Assembly (NCBI GenBank): GCA_019747795.1
Contig: JAIEQK010000107.1
Coordinates: 1 to 51,360 of the forward strand
Source of the DNA: Gammaproteobacteria bacterium
Lineage (GTDB): Bacteria > Pseudomonadota > Gammaproteobacteria > Ga0077536
DNA: 51,360 nucleotides
Reading direction: 5' to 3'
In this document: positions 22,109 to 31,789 of the stretch, in pieces
Position numbering within the stretch: the stretch's first letter is position 1
Layout: each line of letters begins with the position of its first letter
Notes under the pieces: generated by a model
Databases searched by the model: none
The model's input: the letters and a program-made list of their open reading frames with translations, nothing else
Told to the model about the DNA's origin: nothing
Translations under genes and position numbers: made by a program

Positions 22109-23016
22109 ATATTCAGATCCCCTACCGCTCAAATGTTTTGGGGCGGCATGTGATGTCGCCAATCGGCCTGGTGAACGATATTTCAGGCTGCCCGTTCACG
22201 CCAATTACCTCTGAGGTCATCGAGCGTCGTAAGCGGTGGCTCGCGTGGCCAAGGCTGGCGGGCAGTCTTCGAAGCTGAATCTAGGCACCAAAAACGTAAA
22301 TTGCCGACTAGCAGTCGCGCAACAGCTATCGATTTCTCCATCGGTCGTATAGACGCCGAAGCGTTTGCGCTACACAAACTGGTAGCCTGCATTCCATATC
22401 TGCTTTCAGCGTGCAATTCGTAGTTTTCGTTCCATGGGTGGGGGACGCAAAGGTTGATGACTCTGTCTGTCGTCATCCGGCCGCTTTATCACTGTCCGCG
22501 GAAATAAGAAAGTTCCGGCTAGCCGCCCGTCAGTTAACAACACAGTTGGCGTATGCGGGTTGTTCCGTGCGCAATGGCCGCTATGGCGTTGGGGGGAGAT
22601 GACCAACTGAGGCGGTTAGCCGGACAAGGAAGCCCCAAACACCGAGCCGTTTGCGAGAGGGGGAGTTATAACCCCGCAAATGGGGAGTGACGATGCGGAA
22701 ACTTCGTAGCGGCCCCGCATAGTCATGGCTAAACCGGACCGACAGGTCCAATATAGGTTGGCGCGAGAAAAGCTGTCAAGCGTCTCGTGTGGTCTTGGCC
22801 AACGTAGTCGCCGCGGCTGTTTCTGCACTGGTATTGTTTGAACGATTAAGAACTCTGTGGTGAAAGTAATGCTTGAGCGACGCGCAAAGCGAAGTATCGA
22901 AAATCCGTAGTAACGGCAGTATTCAACTCTTTGCGGTGGATCTTCGTCCTCGTTGGAAAATCACGATAGAGAGCAGGCATTCCCCGCGCAACAGACCATC
23001 ATTGATGGGAGGATCC
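22109..23016. other. Long gene-free stretch
   Basis: About 900 bp without a gene I can support. The frame entering from 22873 only becomes credible at the ATG at 23017 (GGGAGG upstream). No known repeat of this window occurs in it. Confidence 0.5.
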
Positions 23017-23791
23017 ATGACGACCTTCGATTCCTATGCAAGCAAATATCGACACCTGCGCATGGAGCGCCGTGACGGCATCCTCCAGATCACTTTGCAT
23101 TCTGATGGCCAGACGTTGCGCTGGGGAAGCGGACCCCACGGAGAGTTTGGCCCGGCATTTCGCGACATCGGTGCAGATCCGGACAACAAGGTCATTATCA
23201 TGACCGGCGTCGGCGATGCCTTCATTGAAGCGGTGGACTCGTCCAATGTTGGCAAACGCCTGCCGACATCGGAAATGTCACCGCGGACCTGGAACCAAAT
23301 CTACTGGAACGTTAAACAGCTACTGATGAATCTGCTCGAAATCGAAGTGCCGATGATCGCGGCGGTCAACGGCCCGGTTTCGATTCACGCTGAATTGGCC
23401 GTGCTCTGTGACATTGTGCTCGCATGTTGAACATGCGTCATTTCAGGATGCGCCCCATTTCCCTAACGGACTCGTCCCGGGCGACGGGGTGCACGTAATT
23501 TGGCCCTTGGTACTGGGTATCAACCGTGGGCGCTACTTTCTGCTGACCGGTCAGACACTTTCTGCGCGGCGCGCTGAGGAGATGGGCGTAGTGAACGAAG
23601 TGCTGCCTGCGGATAAATTGCTCGCGCGTGCGTGGGAACTGGCTGAGCAACTGGCGGGCCAACCGCCGCTCACGCTGCGTTATGCGCGCATCCTTTTGAC
23701 TCAGCGATTGAAGCAGCTGATGCTGGAGCAACTTGGACATGGTCTGGCCCTGCTGGGCTTGGGCGCGAATGACTATTGGCCTGCGGGGTGA
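23017..23791 (+). pseudogene. 6-oxocamphor-hydrolase-like crotonase, single frameshift
   Basis: The 5' part (23017 to about 23425, ending VLCDIVLAC) and the 3' part (EHASFQDAPHFPNGLVPGDG onward) are in adjacent frames. One extra base in GCATGTTGAACATG explains the break. The joined protein keeps equivalents of His41, His124, His147 and Asp156, corresponding to His45, His122, His145 and Asp154 of 6-oxocamphor hydrolase. At the Glu244 position it reads LALLGLG, a Leu. The rest of the frame is clean, so inactivation looks recent. It sits 62 bp before the HAD gene on the same strand. Confidence 0.85.
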
Positions 23792-24822: not shown

Positions 24823-25476
24823 TCAACCTCCCTGGAGTCTTCTCACTACCTCAAGGGTATGCTCCGGTTCAGGGCGCACGGTGTAGTCCGGGTCGACATC
24901 GACCGCGCGCACAATCCCGTTGCTGTCGATCACGAAGCGACCGGGCATAGGCAGCGTCCAGCTGTCATCGCCATCGAACTTCGGCAGGTCAATGCCAAAG
25001 CTGCTATAAATCGCCTCGAGATCGGTTGGCAATTTGAATCTCAGACCGAGCTTTGCCGCATAGGCGTTGTTAGGATCGCTCAGAATGTCGAAGCTGAGAT
25101 TGTTCTTTTCGACAATGGAGAGCCCTAGCTCTGGCAACTGCGGTGAGAGTGCTACCAGACTTGCGCCAAGGTCCTGCAAGGGTTTTGCGATGTCCTGCAA
25201 AGCGTACAGCTCTGCAACACAATAGGGTCACCAATGACCGCGGAATACGGTCAGGACAACAGCGCCCTTGCCCAGGAGGCTTTGGGAGGAAACCGGTGCG
25301 CCGCGCATGTTGGTGAGTTGGAAGGACGGGAGTGTATCGCCCACCTTGATAACACCATCGAGGATCCCCGACGCCCGCAGGTCGGCAGTCGCCCGCTGCA
25401 TGACCGCCAGTTTGTCTGGCGGGATCCTCTTCACCGCGCCGTCGCTGATCTCAGTTAATTTTTGACTCAGACTCAT
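24823..25476 (-). CDS. Peroxiredoxin-like AhpC/TSA protein, candidate selenoprotein (UxxC)
   Basis: Start ATG at 25476 with AGGAGG four bases upstream. Read through an in-frame TGA (25230-25228), the product has 217 residues. The AhpC/TSA fold runs from KVGDTLPSFQLTNMRG through GAVVLTVFRGHW, position 83, PYC, then LQDLGASLVALSPQLPELGL, FDILSDPNNAYAAKLGLRFK and GRFVIDSNGIVRAVDVDPDY. Position 83 is the peroxidatic Cys in relatives (HWCPYC), and here its codon is TGA, giving U83-P-Y-C86. All 134 codons after it are open and conserved. A stem-loop of bacterial SECIS geometry begins 12 bases after the TGA. UxxC forms are known among thioredoxin-fold bacterial selenoproteins. The alternative is a nonsense mutation, possible in a region rich in pseudogenes. 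No selA/B/C lies in the window. Confidence 0.75.
25196..25230 (-). promoter_or_regulatory. UGA codon and candidate bacterial SECIS element
   Basis: On the transcript, UGA is followed by 11 bases, then UGCAGAGC-UGUAC-GCUUUGCA: an 8-bp stem with one G-U pair and a five-base loop. The loop begins 19 bases after the UGA, within the roughly 16-37 described for bacterial SECIS elements, and has G at its second position, as the general bacterial consensus asks. Folding was judged by eye only. Confidence 0.55.
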
Positions 25477-25524
25477 TTGTCCTCCTACGGACTGATTTGA
25501 CGAAATAAACGTAGCATCCGCCAC

Positions 25525-25596: not shown

Positions 25597-26019
25597 TCAC
25601 CCAGTCGCGGCGCCGTCGACGAGGATGGCTGCAGGAATTCGGTACAGCCGCCCGGTTTGGTCCAGTGTATCAACGCTCCATTCGCCGCCAACGCCGGCGA
25701 ACATCCAGCGCAGGATCTGCCACAAATCGTTGTCAACCGCGGTTTCGTCCATCGGCTCAAGCGCCTCGACGAGTGCGTAGATCTCTACACCCGACGGAAA
25801 GCGCTCACCGCTTCGGCCTAGGAAAATCAGCTCGTACGCGTTTCCTGAGGGGCCACGCAGATATCCAGGCCTGTCCATTGCCAGGTCATCGAGTGCAAAC
25901 ATTCGGACGAAGAAGGCGCGGAATTCCGGGTAGTGGGCAAGTCGGTCCTCGCGTAACACATGCACCCGACGTACATCGTTATGCGTGACTGCCTCTGGCG
26001 CGCAAACACTGACGTTCAT
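25597..26019 (-). CDS. Hypothetical protein coupled to haloalkane dehalogenase-like gene
   Basis: 140 residues. Its ATG overlaps the upstream hydrolase stop (ATGA at 26016-26019), indicating translational coupling. Visible segments are VHVLREDRLAHYPEFRAFFV, DRPGYLRGPSGNAYELIFLG and DLWQILRWMFAGVGGEW. It is acidic and soluble, with no signal or membrane segment. I recognise no family. Coupling suggests a role with the hydrolase and GST. Confidence 0.75.
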   Translation of the reverse strand: MNVSVCAPEAVTHNDVRRVHVLREDRLAHYPEFRAFFVRMFALDDLAMDRPGYLRGPSGNAYELIFLGRSGERFPSGVEIYALVEALEPMDETAVDNDLWQILRWMFAGVGGEWSVDTLDQTGRLYRIPAAILVDGAATG

Positions 26020-26975
26020 GTTACGGCTCTCAGGTGATGACCGTTCACAAACTCAACGATCCTCGCGGCAATTTCGGGCCCTGAGTCTTCCTGCAGGAAG
26101 TGCCGGCCGGTCACAAAATAAGGGCCCTCGGCTTGCGGGAGAAGCGCTTTGAATCTTTGCGGGAAAATCTCCGGATTGAAGGTATCGTCCCCGCGACCCC
26201 AGATCAGCAGTGTGGGCAAGGTGCAGGACGTCAGTTGATCTTCTAACCATGAAAATCGACTCATTGCCCGTGCTGCGTTGTCGATGGGGATCCAGCGTGG
26301 CCAGGCCCAGGTCAACAATCTGTCGGCCGGGTCGGGCAGCACGAACTCATATGCCGCCTGTGCCTCTTCGCGGAAGCGCTCACGATCAACCACCGACAGG
26401 TAGAGGCCGCGCTTTACGAGCGCCGCGTGCCGGCCAAGCAAATAGGGTCCGACCAGCGGGGCATGCATGGTCCGCCACGGGAACATCCGCGTATGGAATT
26501 CGGACGGAGGCATGGGCCAGGCCCACGTACTCATCAGCACAAGGCTGTGCATGCGATTGAGATTTGAGAGCGCGAAGCCGAGACCGGTAGGTCCTCCCCA
26601 GTCATGACAAACCAAGGTGACGCGCTGCAAATCGAGGCTGCGGAGCAGGGCAGTCAGATTCGCGATATGGCCGTCGAGTGTATGAGCTTGTTCAATGCTC
26701 GGCTTTTCGGACAGCCCGAAGCCGATCATGTCGGGCACGATCACGCGATAACCCGCCGCAGTGAGCGGCGCGATAAATTCACGATACAGGTAGCCCCAGG
26801 TGGGGTTGCCGTGAAGGAGGACGACAGGGTCGCCTTGGCCCTCGTCGATATAGTGCATGCGGTAGCCGTTCACACGTGCATACCTTGGTCGATAAGGCCA
26901 TTGCGCACGTAGCCAATCGGGCAGCGCGATGCCGTCAGCGCTGCTGCTGAGTGCCGGCACTCGTTGACTAGTCAC
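26016..26975 (-). CDS. Haloalkane-dehalogenase-like alpha/beta hydrolase
   Basis: 319 residues with the haloalkane dehalogenase signature: HGNPTWGYLYR (oxyanion and halide Asn near 57, W60), nucleophile Asp125 in LVCHDWGGPTG followed by the halide-stabilising Trp126, an acid Asp in WGRGDDTF (263/264) and catalytic His292 in GRHFLQEDSG. The cap domain runs from about 150 to 235. It would hydrolyse C-halogen bonds to alcohols. Its ATG overlaps the GST stop by four bases and its own end overlaps the next ATG, so GST, hydrolase and unknown gene form a tight operon. Epoxide or ester hydrolase is less likely, because Asp-Trp follows the nucleophile elbow. Confidence 0.88.
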   Translation of the reverse strand: MTSQRVPALSSSADGIALPDWLRAQWPYRPRYARVNGYRMHYIDEGQGDPVVLLHGNPTWGYLYREFIAPLTAAGYRVIVPDMIGFGLSEKPSIEQAHTLDGHIANLTALLRSLDLQRVTLVCHDWGGPTGLGFALSNLNRMHSLVLMSTWAWPMPPSEFHTRMFPWRTMHAPLVGPYLLGRHAALVKRGLYLSVVDRERFREEAQAAYEFVLPDPADRLLTWAWPRWIPIDNAARAMSRFSWLEDQLTSCTLPTLLIWGRGDDTFNPEIFPQRFKALLPQAEGPYFVTGRHFLQEDSGPEIAARIVEFVNGHHLRAVT

Positions 26976-27670
26976 ACAGGATACCCGGGTGTGCTCGCAG
27001 CTAGTCCGTCGAACGAATTCAGCAGTCGAAGGCGCCAGGCCGCAACAGCGTCATCGTCGGCCAGCAGCTTGAAGGGACTTATACAGCGCGCCCATTGAAA
27101 GGCCCCGAATACGATGTAGTCGGCATAGGCGGGATGAGTACCGGCCAGGTAGGGCTGGAGCTGAAGGACGGCGCGCAGAGGCTCCAAAGTCTGACGGAAA
27201 CTCAGCACGGCTTCGTCTCGACCAGCACTGACTTCTTCGAGTGGTTTGCCAAAGACCTTTTCGCGTGTGGTGCGGAAGTACTCCCGGTCCTGTGGTGCCA
27301 CGTGCGCGTGAATGTCGGATATGACGAGCGGGGCCAGGGCCGGATGGAGCACTTTGTCGGTCCACGCGTTCAGAAACCGCGTGACAGACATTCCGACATC
27401 GCCGCCGAACAACGATGGCCTATCTGGATAGTGCGTTTCGAGGTGAACAGCAATTGCCCATGAGTCGATGACGGTCGTGTCCCCATCAACCAGCACCGGG
27501 ACCCGCCCCTGACCAGAAAATGCGATCTCGTCCTTATCGGTGAACCTCCAGGGCAAAGTTTCGACGGCCAATTCTTTGTGCGCGAGTGCTAGCTTCGTGC
27601 GCCAGCAGAACGGGCTGAACCGTCGATCAGGATCGGCACCCGCCAAATCGTAAAGCCGGAGAGCTGGCAT
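26972..27670 (-). CDS. Glutathione S-transferase, LigE/LigF-related type
   Basis: 232 residues from the ATG at 27670 (AAGAGG upstream); 27733 is a longer alternative. The thioredoxin domain carries RFSPFCWRTKLALAHKEL with a Ser (or Cys) at the glutathione thiolate site, QGRVPVLVDG with cis-Pro, and IDSWAIAVHLE. The helical domain has TRFLNAWTDKVLHPALAPLV and AYADYIVFGAFQWAR. The SPFxWRT start resembles bacterial beta-etherase/isomerase GSTs. First in a three-gene operon with the haloalkane-dehalogenase-like gene; glutathione-dependent removal of a reactive product is a plausible role. Confidence 0.85.
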   Translation of the reverse strand: MPALRLYDLAGADPDRRFSPFCWRTKLALAHKELAVETLPWRFTDKDEIAFSGQGRVPVLVDGDTTVIDSWAIAVHLETHYPDRPSLFGGDVGMSVTRFLNAWTDKVLHPALAPLVISDIHAHVAPQDREYFRTTREKVFGKPLEEVSAGRDEAVLSFRQTLEPLRAVLQLQPYLAGTHPAYADYIVFGAFQWARCISPFKLLADDDAVAAWRLRLLNSFDGLAASTPGYPV

Positions 27671-27772
27671 ATTCGAACCTCTTGGCGTAGGGGACCCCGA
27701 AGACATCGACCGGTGTGATATTTCTTCTACCATGATACCGGACCACGCGGTCCATAATAAATCAAAAAAATG

Positions 27773-28360
27773 CTACTTAAGCGCCGACATGATCACGCCG
27801 ACGATTTCCGTCATTGCTCGATGACTGGTGCCCGCTTTGACCATGGTACGGAGTCCACTCAAGCTCGATAACAAGTAGCGTCCGAGAACATTGGGGTCTT
27901 TGTCGAGGGGAATGGATCCGTCGGACTGCGCTTGCTTGACCGCAGCGACGAATACCTGCGTCACCCGCTTGGCGCCGTCGCCGATCAGCTCTCTGATACG
28001 GGGATCGCGAGCGGAGAACTCGGTCGCCACATTTACGATCATGCAACCGCGTGGGTCTTTGGACGAAAGGACTTCTTCGGCGGCCCCCATCAATACGCTC
28101 TCGATGAACTCCCAGCCGGAATCGCCAGCGCGCAGGCGCGAACGCAGATTCGACGTCACATTGTCGCAGTAATGCGACAGCGCCCGTTGGAAGGCCTCAT
28201 GCTTGCTATTGAATGCCTGGTAGAAACTGCTCTTTGATAGTCCGGTGGCGTCGAGTAGATCGCGCAGAGAGGTTCCCTCATAACCCCGACGCCAGAACGC
28301 CTGCATGGTGGCGTCCAAGGCGACGTCGGGTTCGTACTCAAGGGGGCGTCCAGCATTCAT
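27773..28360 (-). CDS. TetR/AcrR-family repressor
   Basis: 195 residues. The N-terminal helix-turn-helix is LRDLLDATGLSKSSFYQAFN, with SKHEAFQRALSHYC after it. The C-terminal half contains DPRGCMIVNVATEFSARDPR, a pattern seen in the LmrA/YxaF/NemR-like group, which often senses electrophiles or quinone-like compounds. It lies between the GST-hydrolase operon (same strand, downstream) and a divergent GST gene, and could control both through the dyads at 28419-28459. Confidence 0.9.
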   Translation of the reverse strand: MNAGRPLEYEPDVALDATMQAFWRRGYEGTSLRDLLDATGLSKSSFYQAFNSKHEAFQRALSHYCDNVTSNLRSRLRAGDSGWEFIESVLMGAAEEVLSSKDPRGCMIVNVATEFSARDPRIRELIGDGAKRVTQVFVAAVKQAQSDGSIPLDKDPNVLGRYLLSSLSGLRTMVKAGTSHRAMTEIVGVIMSALK

Positions 28361-28520: not shown

Positions 28521-29180
28521 ATGATTGATTTATATACATCTTCGACGCCCAATGGATGGAAGGCATCGGTCATGCTGGAAGAAATCGGGATGCCATATAC
28601 CGTCCATCCCATAAGCCTCAGCCAGGGTGAACAGAAATCGCCTAAATTTCTTGCGGTCAATCCCAATGGTCGCATTCCCGCTATCGTTGACAGGGCGAAC
28701 GGTGACTTCGCCGTATTCGAAAGCGGTGCAATCCTGCTTTACCTCGCCAAGAAGAGTGGCAAGCTACTACCCAAGGACGACAAGGGCGAATCCCACGTCA
28801 CCCAATGGTTGATGTTCCAAATGGGCGGCGTCGGCCCGATGATGGGGCAGGCCAATGTGTTCTATCGCTACTTTCCGGAGAAAATCCAGCCGGCCATTGA
28901 TCGCTATCAGAACGAAGGCCGGCGTTTATTCGAAGTCCTGAATGGGCAGCTCAAGGGCCGCGAGTATCTTTGCGACGAGTACAGCATCGCGGATATCGCA
29001 AACTGGTGCTGGGTGCGCATTCATGCCTGGAGTGGCATCGACGTCACTGGCTTGGATGATCTGCAGGCTTGGCTCGCCCGGCTTGAGGCACGTCCTGCTT
29101 GCCAGCGAGGTATCGTCGTGCCCGAACCGCTCGTTCTCGAAGGGGTAGTCGACATGGCCAAGAAGATCTTGACCAAATAG
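28521..29180 (+). CDS. Nu-class-like glutathione S-transferase (YfcG/YghU type)
   Basis: 219 residues. [20 protein letters not shown] has the Thr/Asn-Gly start of Nu-class enzymes, followed by [11 protein letters not shown] and [15 protein letters not shown]. The C-terminal domain holds [20 protein letters not shown] and [15 protein letters not shown]. Nu-class GSTs are disulfide-bond oxidoreductases or peroxidases that bind two glutathiones. Divergent from the TetR gene; 48 bp separate it from the next GST-like gene. Confidence 0.92.
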
Positions 29181-29228
29181 GCGCACTTTTCACGAGCACT
29201 GGGCCAAAGCGGCCAGCGCACCCAAGCA

Positions 29229-30014
29229 ATGTCAGGAATGCGAAGAATGCTTACTTACCTTTCGCCCGCTGAAATCATCCACCATGAAGGGCTGCGGATA
29301 GTTCTTGTGCAAGGCATGCCCAGCCCGTGGGGGCAGGCGGCCAAAACTATCCTCGAGATCAAAGGGCTCGACTATGTCGCGGCACCCTTGGCCGTCGGTG
29401 GAACCAATGACGAAATCGTCGCCTGGTGCGGCGAGAACAGTGGCCCGATTGTCGCCTGGGCGGACGAAAAGCCGGTCCACCGCTGGCTCGACATCCTCCA
29501 CCTGGCTGAGCGCTTGGCACCCACTCCTGCGCTCATTCCAAGCGACGCGAGTCGACGCGCGCTCATGATTGGTCTTTCCAATGAGATCTGCGGCGAACTT
29601 GGCATCGGATGGAACCGCCGCCTGCAACTATTCGCACCCGCGATGAAAGCCGAGACCCCGCCCGAAGGGGTCGCGCGGATGAGTGGCAAGTACGGCTATA
29701 ACGAATCGGATGCGGAAATTGCAGGCGCCCGTGTCGCTGGCAGCCTTCGGGCATTGACTACGCAGCTTAGATCGCAGCGCGAGCGCGGTTCGCAGTTTTT
29801 CATCGGCGACAGGCTCAGTGCCCTCGATATCTATTGGGCATCGTTCATGAACCTTCTAGCGCCGCTGCCGAAGGAAAACTGTCCGATGCCTGAAGATTGG
29901 CGGCCGGCATTTGTTGCTACAGATCCGAAGATTGTCGAGGCCTTGGATCCCCTGTTGGTTGAGCATAGGGACCGAATATTCTGGGCCTACTTTCGCAATC
30001 CGATGGAGTTTTGA
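29229..30014 (+). CDS. Glutathione S-transferase-like protein
   Basis: Up to 261 residues. ATGs at 29229, 29238 and 29247 are all possible; AGGA stands before the last. A thioredoxin-like domain is visible (LRIVLVQGMPSPWGQAAKTI, with SPW at the usual thiolate position). A helical C-terminal domain follows, with GSQFFIGDRLSALDIYWASF giving the GST N-capping box. It is more diverged than the other GSTs. Same strand and close spacing suggest co-transcription with the Nu-class gene. Confidence 0.75.
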   Translation: MSGMRRMLTYLSPAEIIHHEGLRIVLVQGMPSPWGQAAKTILEIKGLDYVAAPLAVGGTNDEIVAWCGENSGPIVAWADEKPVHRWLDILHLAERLAPTPALIPSDASRRALMIGLSNEICGELGIGWNRRLQLFAPAMKAETPPEGVARMSGKYGYNESDAEIAGARVAGSLRALTTQLRSQRERGSQFFIGDRLSALDIYWASFMNLLAPLPKENCPMPEDWRPAFVATDPKIVEALDPLLVEHRDRIFWAYFRNPMEF

Positions 30015-30095
30015 TGGGTTGTCCCATCTGCACAACCGGCGGCAGGCGAACACTCGTCGTGGTGTAAAGGCGGGCCGTTCGAAGTTCCATCCGGC

Positions 30096-30371
30096 ATGAC
30101 ATACAGAATCTACGGCGATGAACTGAGTCTGTTCACGCGCAAGCTCGAGTGCGCTTGCTTGTTCTATGGGCTCGATTTTGAGCGATGTGACAAGACCCGC
30201 GAAAACGCAGCGCATATTGAGCAGCGTGCGGGCACACACCAGGTTCCGGTCTTACACACGCCAGAGAACTGGATGCTCTCAGACACCACTCCTATTCTCG
30301 CTCTGTTGGACGCCCGTCACCCCGGACGAGAAATGTTTCCGCCAGGCTTGTATGGTGCTATTGCGCATATC
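30096..30371 (+). pseudogene. Glutathione S-transferase, thioredoxin domain only
   Basis: The frame MTYRIYGDELSLFTRKLECA, with RAGTHQVPVLHTPENWMLSD and LLDARHPGREMFPPG, is the N-terminal domain of a GST with the SxFTRK thiolate region and cis-Pro. Homology ends about where the IS630 element begins (30372); the open frame runs on to 30383 inside it. The helical domain is missing and was probably cut off by that insertion or a later deletion. Confidence 0.8.
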
Positions 30372-31416
30372 CTAAATAACTGATCCAAATTTTGCGACAC
30401 TGGGGGAGTTGCCTGGAAAGGGACTGGCCGCGCTTAGAAATGCTCGCACGGCGGCCATAAGTTTATCCATTGTTGGATAGCCGATAGTTACGGGTGATGT
30501 TGTCATGGAGTTGCTTCCAGAGCTTTTCGATGTCGTTCACCCAGGGCTGATAGGCTGGCTGAAAGAGGATCTCAAACTTCGGGTTATAGTTCAGCCAGGC
30601 TTGCGCCAGATTGGATTTGTGGATGATGTAGTTATCTGCAATTAGCACGATCTGTCGGGCGCTGCGGTAGGTCCGTTTCAGGCACTCTAACCGGCACAAG
30701 AATAGATCTGTATTTTTGCGTTCGCCCTCGACGTAGTCCACGCGGCCTGTTCGTGCATGCAAGGCACCAGCGAGATAGCGTTTCTGATTCTTGCAGGGTG
30801 TCGGGACCGTCTGCTGTTGCCCGAGCGGCGACCAGAGGAAGCCGATTTTGGGATTCAGGTCGATATCGACTTCGTCCACATAGAAAATCTCGACGCCGGA
30901 CTTAGGCGAGTCCAGTCTTTGCTTGATCGCCCGCAACCGCTGTGCCGAGGCGGGATGCGAGATCCGCAACGTCGGCCGAGCACGACGCCAGCGCAGACCT
31001 ATTTTGGGTAATTCCCGGCGCACCGTCGAAGCATGAACGGGACGCTCGAGCAGCGAAGAGAGCGTGAGCGCGAGCATCTCACTGGTCCAGGTGCTGCGAA
31101 GATAGCCGTAATCACCGGGCGGTTGTCCGACGAGTTCTAACAAGGTTTCCCGTAGCGTCTCATCGACGGTATAGGCCGGGCGACCCGAGTGACAGACTGC
31201 CAGAGCGGCTTCGCCGAGCGTCATAAAAGCCGCTGCCCATCGATAAACCGTTGAACGGGCAACCAATAGACCCTCGGCAATCTGCGTGACGGCAACCCCG
31301 GACGCCAATTGCAATACGCCTTGGGCGCGCCTGACTTGCCGCGCCTCCGAGCATCGCTGCACAAGCCGTTGCAGGCGGCGCTTCTGTGGGCGGCTCAATA
31401 TCAATAAACTGCTCAT
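30372..31416 (-). pseudogene. IS630 transposase with C-terminal frameshift
   Basis: From the ATG at 31416 the protein has an N-terminal winged helix (AEGLLVARSTVYRWAAAF), then a DDE core: FYVDEVDIDLNP, IVLIADNYIIHKS and PWVNDIEKLWKQLHDN. The frame ends early at 30463 (NYRLSNNG). In the next frame the natural tail continues as YPTMDKLMAAVRAFLSAASP, then FPGNSPSVAKFG, to a stop at 30372. A single base change in length explains this. All catalytic acids are upstream of the lesion, so residual activity is conceivable. Confidence 0.85.
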
Positions 31417-31521
31417 GCTCAGGTGACCTCTCTCGGTATAGGTGTTTGATTGACACAACCTCCGATCACCGAATGTCACCTGAGTTCTATATCTGATCGA
31501 TCTTTTCGAACGCCTATTTAG
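30372..31521 (-). mobile_element. IS630-family insertion sequence (about 1.15 kb)
   Basis: The span holds one transposase and is bounded by CTAAATA at 30372 and its complement TATTTAG ending 31521. The next bases inside each end are only loosely matched (ACTGATC and GATCGATC), so termini are proposed by eye. The length suits IS630. A clear TA duplication is not visible, consistent with later decay or rearrangement. Confidence 0.65.
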
Positions 31522-31527
31522 CGCCCT

Positions 31528-31567
31528 ACGTACATCCAGTACCGGCACGGCGGTGCTGGATGTACGT
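31528..31567. repeat. 12-bp perfect inverted repeat next to IS630
   Basis: ACGTACATCCAG and CTGGATGTACGT flank a 16-base centre. It begins 6 bp outside the proposed IS630 end. It may be the terminus or target of another element, or a hairpin; no gene is associated. Confidence 0.6.
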
Positions 31568-31789
31568 CTCATTTAGTGCAGGAATTTACTCGTTCAACCC
31601 CAGCAAGACCGCCGCTTCCTGCCGCGCCCGCTCCGGGCCGCTGAGCAGCTGAACCAGTAATGCAAGCCGAGCAGAACGGTGAAACCCGTGCCATCGTGGA
31701 CTTCGGTTGTGTTGCTCGCCATGAAGGCACCGACTTCGGCAAGATGGGCCTCGCGCGACAGGCGTAGAGCGCCACCGGGCAAGGCAGAA

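Follow-up and report, generated by a model that had tools for sequence, protein, structure and literature searches.

In the window, by which we mean the whole stretch of 51,360 nucleotides analysed here (contig C315 of a 5.94 Mb genome assembled in 331 contigs), a minus-strand gene is interrupted by a TGA codon at the position where nearly all mapped relatives outside its order encode a cysteine. This raises the question of whether the gene is broken or whether the TGA is read as selenocysteine (Sec). Judged from sequence comparison, the gene, for which we use the name prxU, is almost certainly intact, with its TGA read as Sec at the active site. We consider it highly probable (about 0.94) that prxU encodes a thioredoxin-fold peroxiredoxin-like selenoprotein, in which UGA 83 would be decoded via SelB, tRNA-Sec and a stem-loop; insertion of Sec at residue 83, taken by itself, can be assumed with even greater confidence. 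This reading follows from the conservation of codon 83, the presence of sel genes, the constraint on the stem-loop and the selection acting downstream of the TGA. The sequence features by which bacterial selenoproteins are recognized were found, namely a UGA at the position of a redox Cys, selABCD (selD in part) and a downstream stem-loop as candidate SECIS.

The reading frame of prxU and its predicted product

The features of the gene in the window are as follows.

24823..25476, minus strand: prxU (name given here), predicted Sec-containing peroxiredoxin-like gene, 217 codons/residues with U83, terminator TGA (from translation)
25228..25230, minus strand: in-frame TGA, codon 83 (UxxC), aligned with the Cys of homologues
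25219..25221, minus strand: TGT codon of Cys86, the putative resolving residue in U-P-Y-C, with C86 invariant in a 44-sequence alignment
25481..25486, minus strand: Shine-Dalgarno sequence AGGAGG, read directly from the sequence, with the ATG four bases further on

Translation of the 217-codon frame gives one internal stop, the TGA at codon 83 in the context VFRGHW-TGA-PYCVAEL, in agreement with the original prediction of a single in-frame TGA in HW-TGA-PYC. The 134 codons described as intact after the TGA were counted, and the perfect AGGAGG reported before the start was read at 25486-25481, four bases ahead of the ATG. The gene's own terminator (24823-24825, minus strand) is likewise TGA, which means that TGA is still a stop in prxU itself. 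Mechanical ORF calling splits the gene into 25228-25524 and 24823-25200, and prxU might readily be taken for a pseudogene in this way, yet it was found at E<=1e-30 in 24 of the 36 genomes sampled from the window's order, all of one family (28 match rows with one TGA inside each).

The prxU protein belongs to the Pfam family AhpC-TSA (PF00578; 83.8 bits, cut-off 26) and also matches Redoxin (65.1 bits, cut-off 26.6). An AlphaFold2 model calculated with Cys substituted for Sec (mean pLDDT 96.6) shows a helix (84-102) that begins right after residue 83. No variation was seen at R79, W82, P84, C86 or residue 83 (treated as Cys) across the 44 sequences. We propose that UGA 83 would be decoded by SelB and tRNA-Sec, aided by the stem-loop just downstream. 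Sec83, located at the helix start, might attack an oxidised substrate (a hydroperoxide or a disulfide) and then form a selenenylsulfide with Cys86 as the resolving residue, after which a thiol reductant would reset Sec83. A hydroperoxide is the more likely substrate, with a disulfide nearly as likely, and we lean towards a peroxidase rather than a disulfide-oxidoreductase activity.

It is a real possibility that the product of prxU is a selenoprotein acting not as a peroxidase but as a thiol-disulfide oxidoreductase of the ResA/TlpA-like UxxC type. The UxxC at the helix start of the model would suit such an enzyme, and a profile search against PDB sequences reached ResA structures (E about 1e-14) beside the peroxiredoxins; the best matches, however, were peroxiredoxins, and Foldseek ranked PrxQ/BCP and AhpE structures highest for the model, placing a ResA-type entry 22nd. 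The motif PxxxTxxC/U, given as the canonical peroxiredoxin active site in a 2026 review (PMC13188914), is absent from the 44-sequence alignment, the window protein having Thr at -7 and Gly at -3. This absence adds to the case for an oxidoreductase and makes "peroxiredoxin-like" the safer name. In the same direction, the name thiol:disulfide oxidoreductase has been given in print to a UxxC Prx-like family.

Predicted selenoproteins in this review (PMC13188914) include Prx-like proteins with UxxC/UxxU (PF00578), a peroxiredoxin-like protein with UxxS (cd02970) and a redoxin with UxxC, and 225 UxxC "Prx-like 1" genes are counted in the GOS survey. With the Prx-like thiol:disulfide oxidoreductase selenoproteins (PF00578, UxxC/UxxU; "Prx-like 1"), which are likewise predicted, prxU shares PF00578 and UxxC; its likeness to the Prx-like UxxC group (representative WP_010940744.1) is one of domain and motif, and the two may overlap. 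Against the NCBIfam model SelL_rel_redox (NF040769) the window protein scored 28.3 bits, far under the cut-off of 120, and three relatives gave 32.0 bits, 41.8 bits and no match. The AhpC/TSA or peroxiredoxin-like family selenoprotein (cd02970 / pfam13911) has in common with prxU a peroxiredoxin-like domain and Sec at the first redox position, but carries UxxS instead of UxxC, and pfam13911 gave no match on prxU at E<=0.001. The selenocysteine peroxiredoxin of the TxxU type (Eubacterium acidaminophilum Prx; NCBIfam NF040737 PrxU) shares the peroxiredoxin fold and an active-site Sec; prxU, however, is without PxxxTxxU and scored 19.8 bits against NF040737 (cut-off 270). Where NCBIfam models matched the Sec proteins at all, their scores stayed under the respective cut-offs. 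Plasmid genes annotated "peroxiredoxin-like family protein" reach up to 51% identity to prxU by overall similarity.

Conservation of codon 83

Every one of the 27 order loci with codon 83 in its span, among them the one in the window, carries TGA there, at identities reaching down to 48%. L055, a C-terminal fragment without codon 83 whose TGA consequently sits elsewhere, was excluded from this count. Altogether codon 83 was mapped in 60 of 61 loci, with TGA in 30 (L015, L016, L028-L054, L056) and TGC/TGT in 30. L016 duplicates L054 (same DNA over the matched part); L015 and L030 form identical rows in the tree and duplicates in the SECIS region, so they probably represent one genome. A class-wide sample of 369 genomes added eight loci, all with TGC/TGT; one of them, G544, had been listed with one TGA but reads TGC at codon 83 and was taken as Cys. 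Outside the order, TGC/TGT was thus found in 38 of the 39 mapped loci, in line with the claim that relatives have Cys at residue 83, and the sole Sec homologue there is that of G174 (L056; 50% identity), a genome that has selA. A phylum-wide sample gave matches in 44 of 398 genomes at E<=1e-20, the window's own included; the mapping of codon 83 leaves out 18 phylum-wide rows outside the order and 13 newly matched class-wide rows, the latter all without internal stop. No Cys version was seen among the order matches at E<=1e-30, though a weaker Cys relative may lie below that threshold. The comparison of homologues proposed earlier for residue 83 therefore returned a Cys/Sec exchange and not random stops.

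A copy in G005 (G005:C87:91911-94377; L054, L055, L016) lies in two parts, residues 1-137 and 137-215, about 1.8 kb apart, and was apparently interrupted by an insertion. Its downstream part carries a further TGA, and another copy in this genome (C80) covers residues 2-213.

The genes around prxU in the window are the following.

About 22873-23790, plus strand: enoyl-CoA hydratase gene broken across two frames, the first matching ECH_1 positions 4-116 and the second 124-211
26016-26975, minus strand: a/b-hydrolase
26972-27733, minus strand: GST
27773-28360, minus strand: TetR
28521-29180, plus strand: GST
29181-30434, plus strand: frame with a GST N-terminal match near its end
30463-31572, minus strand: DDE-type transposase near the GST genes

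Neighbouring genes had been said to carry nonsense mutations, and at least one neighbour is indeed broken, the enoyl-CoA hydratase gene, whose split between two frames is a frameshift or pseudogene. This gene and the nearby transposase would fit a nonsense mutation in a decaying prxU. Such a reading is nevertheless very improbable and was rejected, since it is contradicted by the conserved codon, with TGA in 27 of 27 order loci at identities as low as 48%, and by selection; moreover, synonymous codons after the TGA are frozen. We obtained dN/dS values of 0.05-0.23 upstream of the TGA (eight of nine relative pairs with unsaturated synonymous sites) and of 0.04-0.19 downstream of it (six of nine), the genes being compared position by position from codon 83 rather than through an alignment. 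The low downstream values argue against a dead gene and agree with the earlier description of the post-TGA codons as conserved, just as the recurrence of the TGA in the order bears out the view that a chance nonsense mutation is unlikely.

The own genome holds a second copy of the Sec gene (G000:C302:26914-27561; L053, L092) that is 64% identical and likewise possesses the TGA and the stem-loop. A sequencing or assembly error at codon 83, which an assembly of 331 contigs might invite, is more improbable still than a pseudogene and was rejected, as this second copy and other genomes carry the TGA too.

Selenocysteine machinery and the downstream stem-loop

The following Sec genes were located in the source genome.

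C291:20917-21008: tRNA-Sec (selC), 62.4 bits; ARAGORN tRNA-SeC, anticodon tca
C291:16182-17531: selA, 593 bits, over cut-off
C291:17573-19456: selB, 418.9 bits, over cut-off
C281:31694-32524: selD, 266.5 bits, over cut-off, model positions 38-310 only

All four genes whose search had been suggested as a check are thus present; selD is partial and, from the length of its locus, apparently cut by the contig end. No tRNA-Sec was found in the 14 kb stretch surrounding the C302 copy of prxU. A genome-wide reassignment of TGA, for example to Trp or Gly, would equally produce an in-frame TGA with an intact frame downstream, but it was rejected as exceedingly improbable, given that prxU itself terminates with TGA, that all 38 mapped homologues lacking Sec have Cys at codon 83, and neither Trp nor Gly, and that the genome has tRNA-Sec and selAB.

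Among the order genomes, selA was found in 23 of 24 with prxU versus 8 of 12 without it, a modest association (P 0.034); G010 (completeness 86, contamination 7) has prxU and shows no selA. Outside the order, 29 genomes were considered, and selA was over the cut-off in G174 and in 2 of the 28 Cys genomes, these being the ones with fetched loci out of 42 genomes matching outside the order besides G174. Taken together, selA is present in 24 of 25 Sec genomes versus 2 of 28 Cys genomes (Fisher P ~1e-11, with genomes treated as independent though related). The order genomes with selA and without prxU at E<=1e-30 are G003, G009, G014, G015, G022, G028, G031 and G033; probably other selenoproteins occur in the order, or prxU is missing from these assemblies. 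In the own genome, formate dehydrogenase models gave 23 match rows, none with an internal stop, and formate dehydrogenase was rejected as a further Sec client there, the only match over the cut-off having Cys (VCHSPT). Within the window, seven TGA-bearing frames read through and one plain ORF were compared with Pfam in search of a second selenoprotein, and no TGA fell within a matched domain.

The stem-loop that might serve as SECIS element is located just behind the UGA.

25196..25216, minus strand: candidate bacterial SECIS stem-loop, loop UGUAC at 25204-25208, suggested by pairing and frozen codons

Its stem starts 11 nt after the UGA and comprises eight possible pairs (25216-25209 with 25203-25196), and its loop begins 19 nt after the UGA with a G at loop position 2, so that the stem length, the loop G and the spacing given in the original prediction were all recovered from the window. 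The folding check proposed there is supported by pairing in relatives and by codon freezing, with weak covariation. In an alignment of 26 distinct sequences anchored at the TGA, from which four duplicate-DNA rows were omitted, columns 15-22 pair with columns 28-35 in 92.8% of cells, compared with 26-57% when the columns are slid by 1-3. Change on both sides was seen in one pair (2 cells), and 183 of 500 shuffles equalled this pair count; covariation was therefore set aside as proof of the stem.

Several codons in this region are strongly fixed. All 26 sequences use GCT for Ala +9, whereas GCT accounts for 9% of the Ala codons in the rest of these genes. Glu +6 is always encoded by GAG (25/25, background 51%) and Leu +7 by CTG (25/25, background 36%), and Pro +1 is mostly CCC (22/26, background 28%). 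Binomial P values for this freezing treat related sequences as independent. The Cys homologues (38 mapped loci) resemble prxU over most of its length and have a W-C-P-[YF]-C type site, but they differ in carrying Cys for Sec, and no freezing was seen at the matching positions in the 30 examined; at position +8 these homologues depart from background with CAG in 13 of 13 (P 2.6e-5). When codons +1 to +12 were taken as a block, the window gene differed strongly at synonymous sites from two genus relatives (pS 0.84), the other seven pairs giving pS 0-0.375. Because this block-wide difference is high, the constraint appears to act on particular codons. As far as the aligned sequences can tell, codon freezing is stronger evidence for the stem-loop than covariation.

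Rfam gave 0 matches on the stem-loop at E<=10. A covariance model built from it (R1) recovered the two prxU copies in the own genome (E 1.2e-14 and 6.1e-13, the C302 copy scoring 54.6 bits), and the next hit had E 0.39. As a finder of further selenoproteins in this genome R1 was rejected, being too family-specific and confident only on the two prxU copies.

Ancestry and genomic neighbourhood

In a maximum-likelihood tree of 56 proteins, calculated with the Sec/Cys column masked and without L016, L018, L050 and L054, all 27 Sec rows fall on one side of one branch. This branch has a support of 95/94 and is present in 94% of 200 bootstrap trees. G174 is the earliest branch inside the Sec group, which fits transfer and old ancestry alike. 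With one Sec clade and fairly close Cys relatives, prxU adds a well-supported Sec/Cys pair through which the benefit of Sec to an enzyme of the peroxiredoxin-like fold might be studied.

The original prediction placed the gene in a glutathione-rich detoxification cluster. GST genes do adjoin prxU in the window, and they recur beside it in G002, G005 and G013 at 64-85% identity; those in G023 and G024 are more distant (38%). However, they recur in some relatives only, and none of eight window neighbours sought was found within the 6 kb flanks of the close relative L015, whose protein is identical in the tree to that of G019, a member of the window's genus. The link to GST is therefore partial, and a role of prxU in glutathione-rich detoxification might be conjectured.

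In four relatives (G007, G016, G017 and G035) prxU starts 69-142 nt behind selC. The gene order in G035 is selA, selB, a beta-lactamase/esterase-like gene, selC, prxU and a convergent gene for an oxidoreductase-SelD fusion. Among the 27 order loci, with flanks of up to 1.5 kb, selC lies by prxU in 4 and the SelD-fusion gene in 6, so that one or both accompany prxU in 7 (G007, G016, G017, G035, G030, G032 and G034); neither was found within the flank at the remaining 20, the window's included. In the own genome the prxU copies are on C315 and C302, and selA, selB and selC on C291; we infer that prxU left the sel operon in this genome.

In PMC1794560, selA-selB-selC operons are described for Sec-decoding Alpha-, Beta- and Gammaproteobacteria/Pseudomonadales, with the adjoining fdhA as the only selenoprotein there. 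The four relatives share with these operons a selenoprotein gene by selABC, but the neighbour is prxU, whereas it is fdhA in those operons. A search of part of the literature recognised no prxU-type family adjoining selC. Predicted UxxC Prx-like selenoproteins are already in print, and it is the place of prxU beside selC that is unusual. Sel operons with a selenoprotein neighbour other than formate dehydrogenase bear on what makes lineages retain an apparatus for Sec that is expensive to maintain. One might speculate that the order keeps this machinery chiefly for prxU, in the place of fdhA by selC, and that Sec arose once with no reversion to Cys, a scenario that we regard as rather doubtful.

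The oxidoreductase-SelD fusion gene (L089:1473-3704, plus strand, and relatives) is convergent with prxU in six genomes, and the product of the L089 gene scores over the cut-offs of both TIGR03169 and TIGR00476. Just upstream of selA, a 354-residue protein is encoded at L089:9723-10784 (minus strand); it gave no NCBIfam match at E<=0.001, and a similar N-terminus is found at L088:10154.
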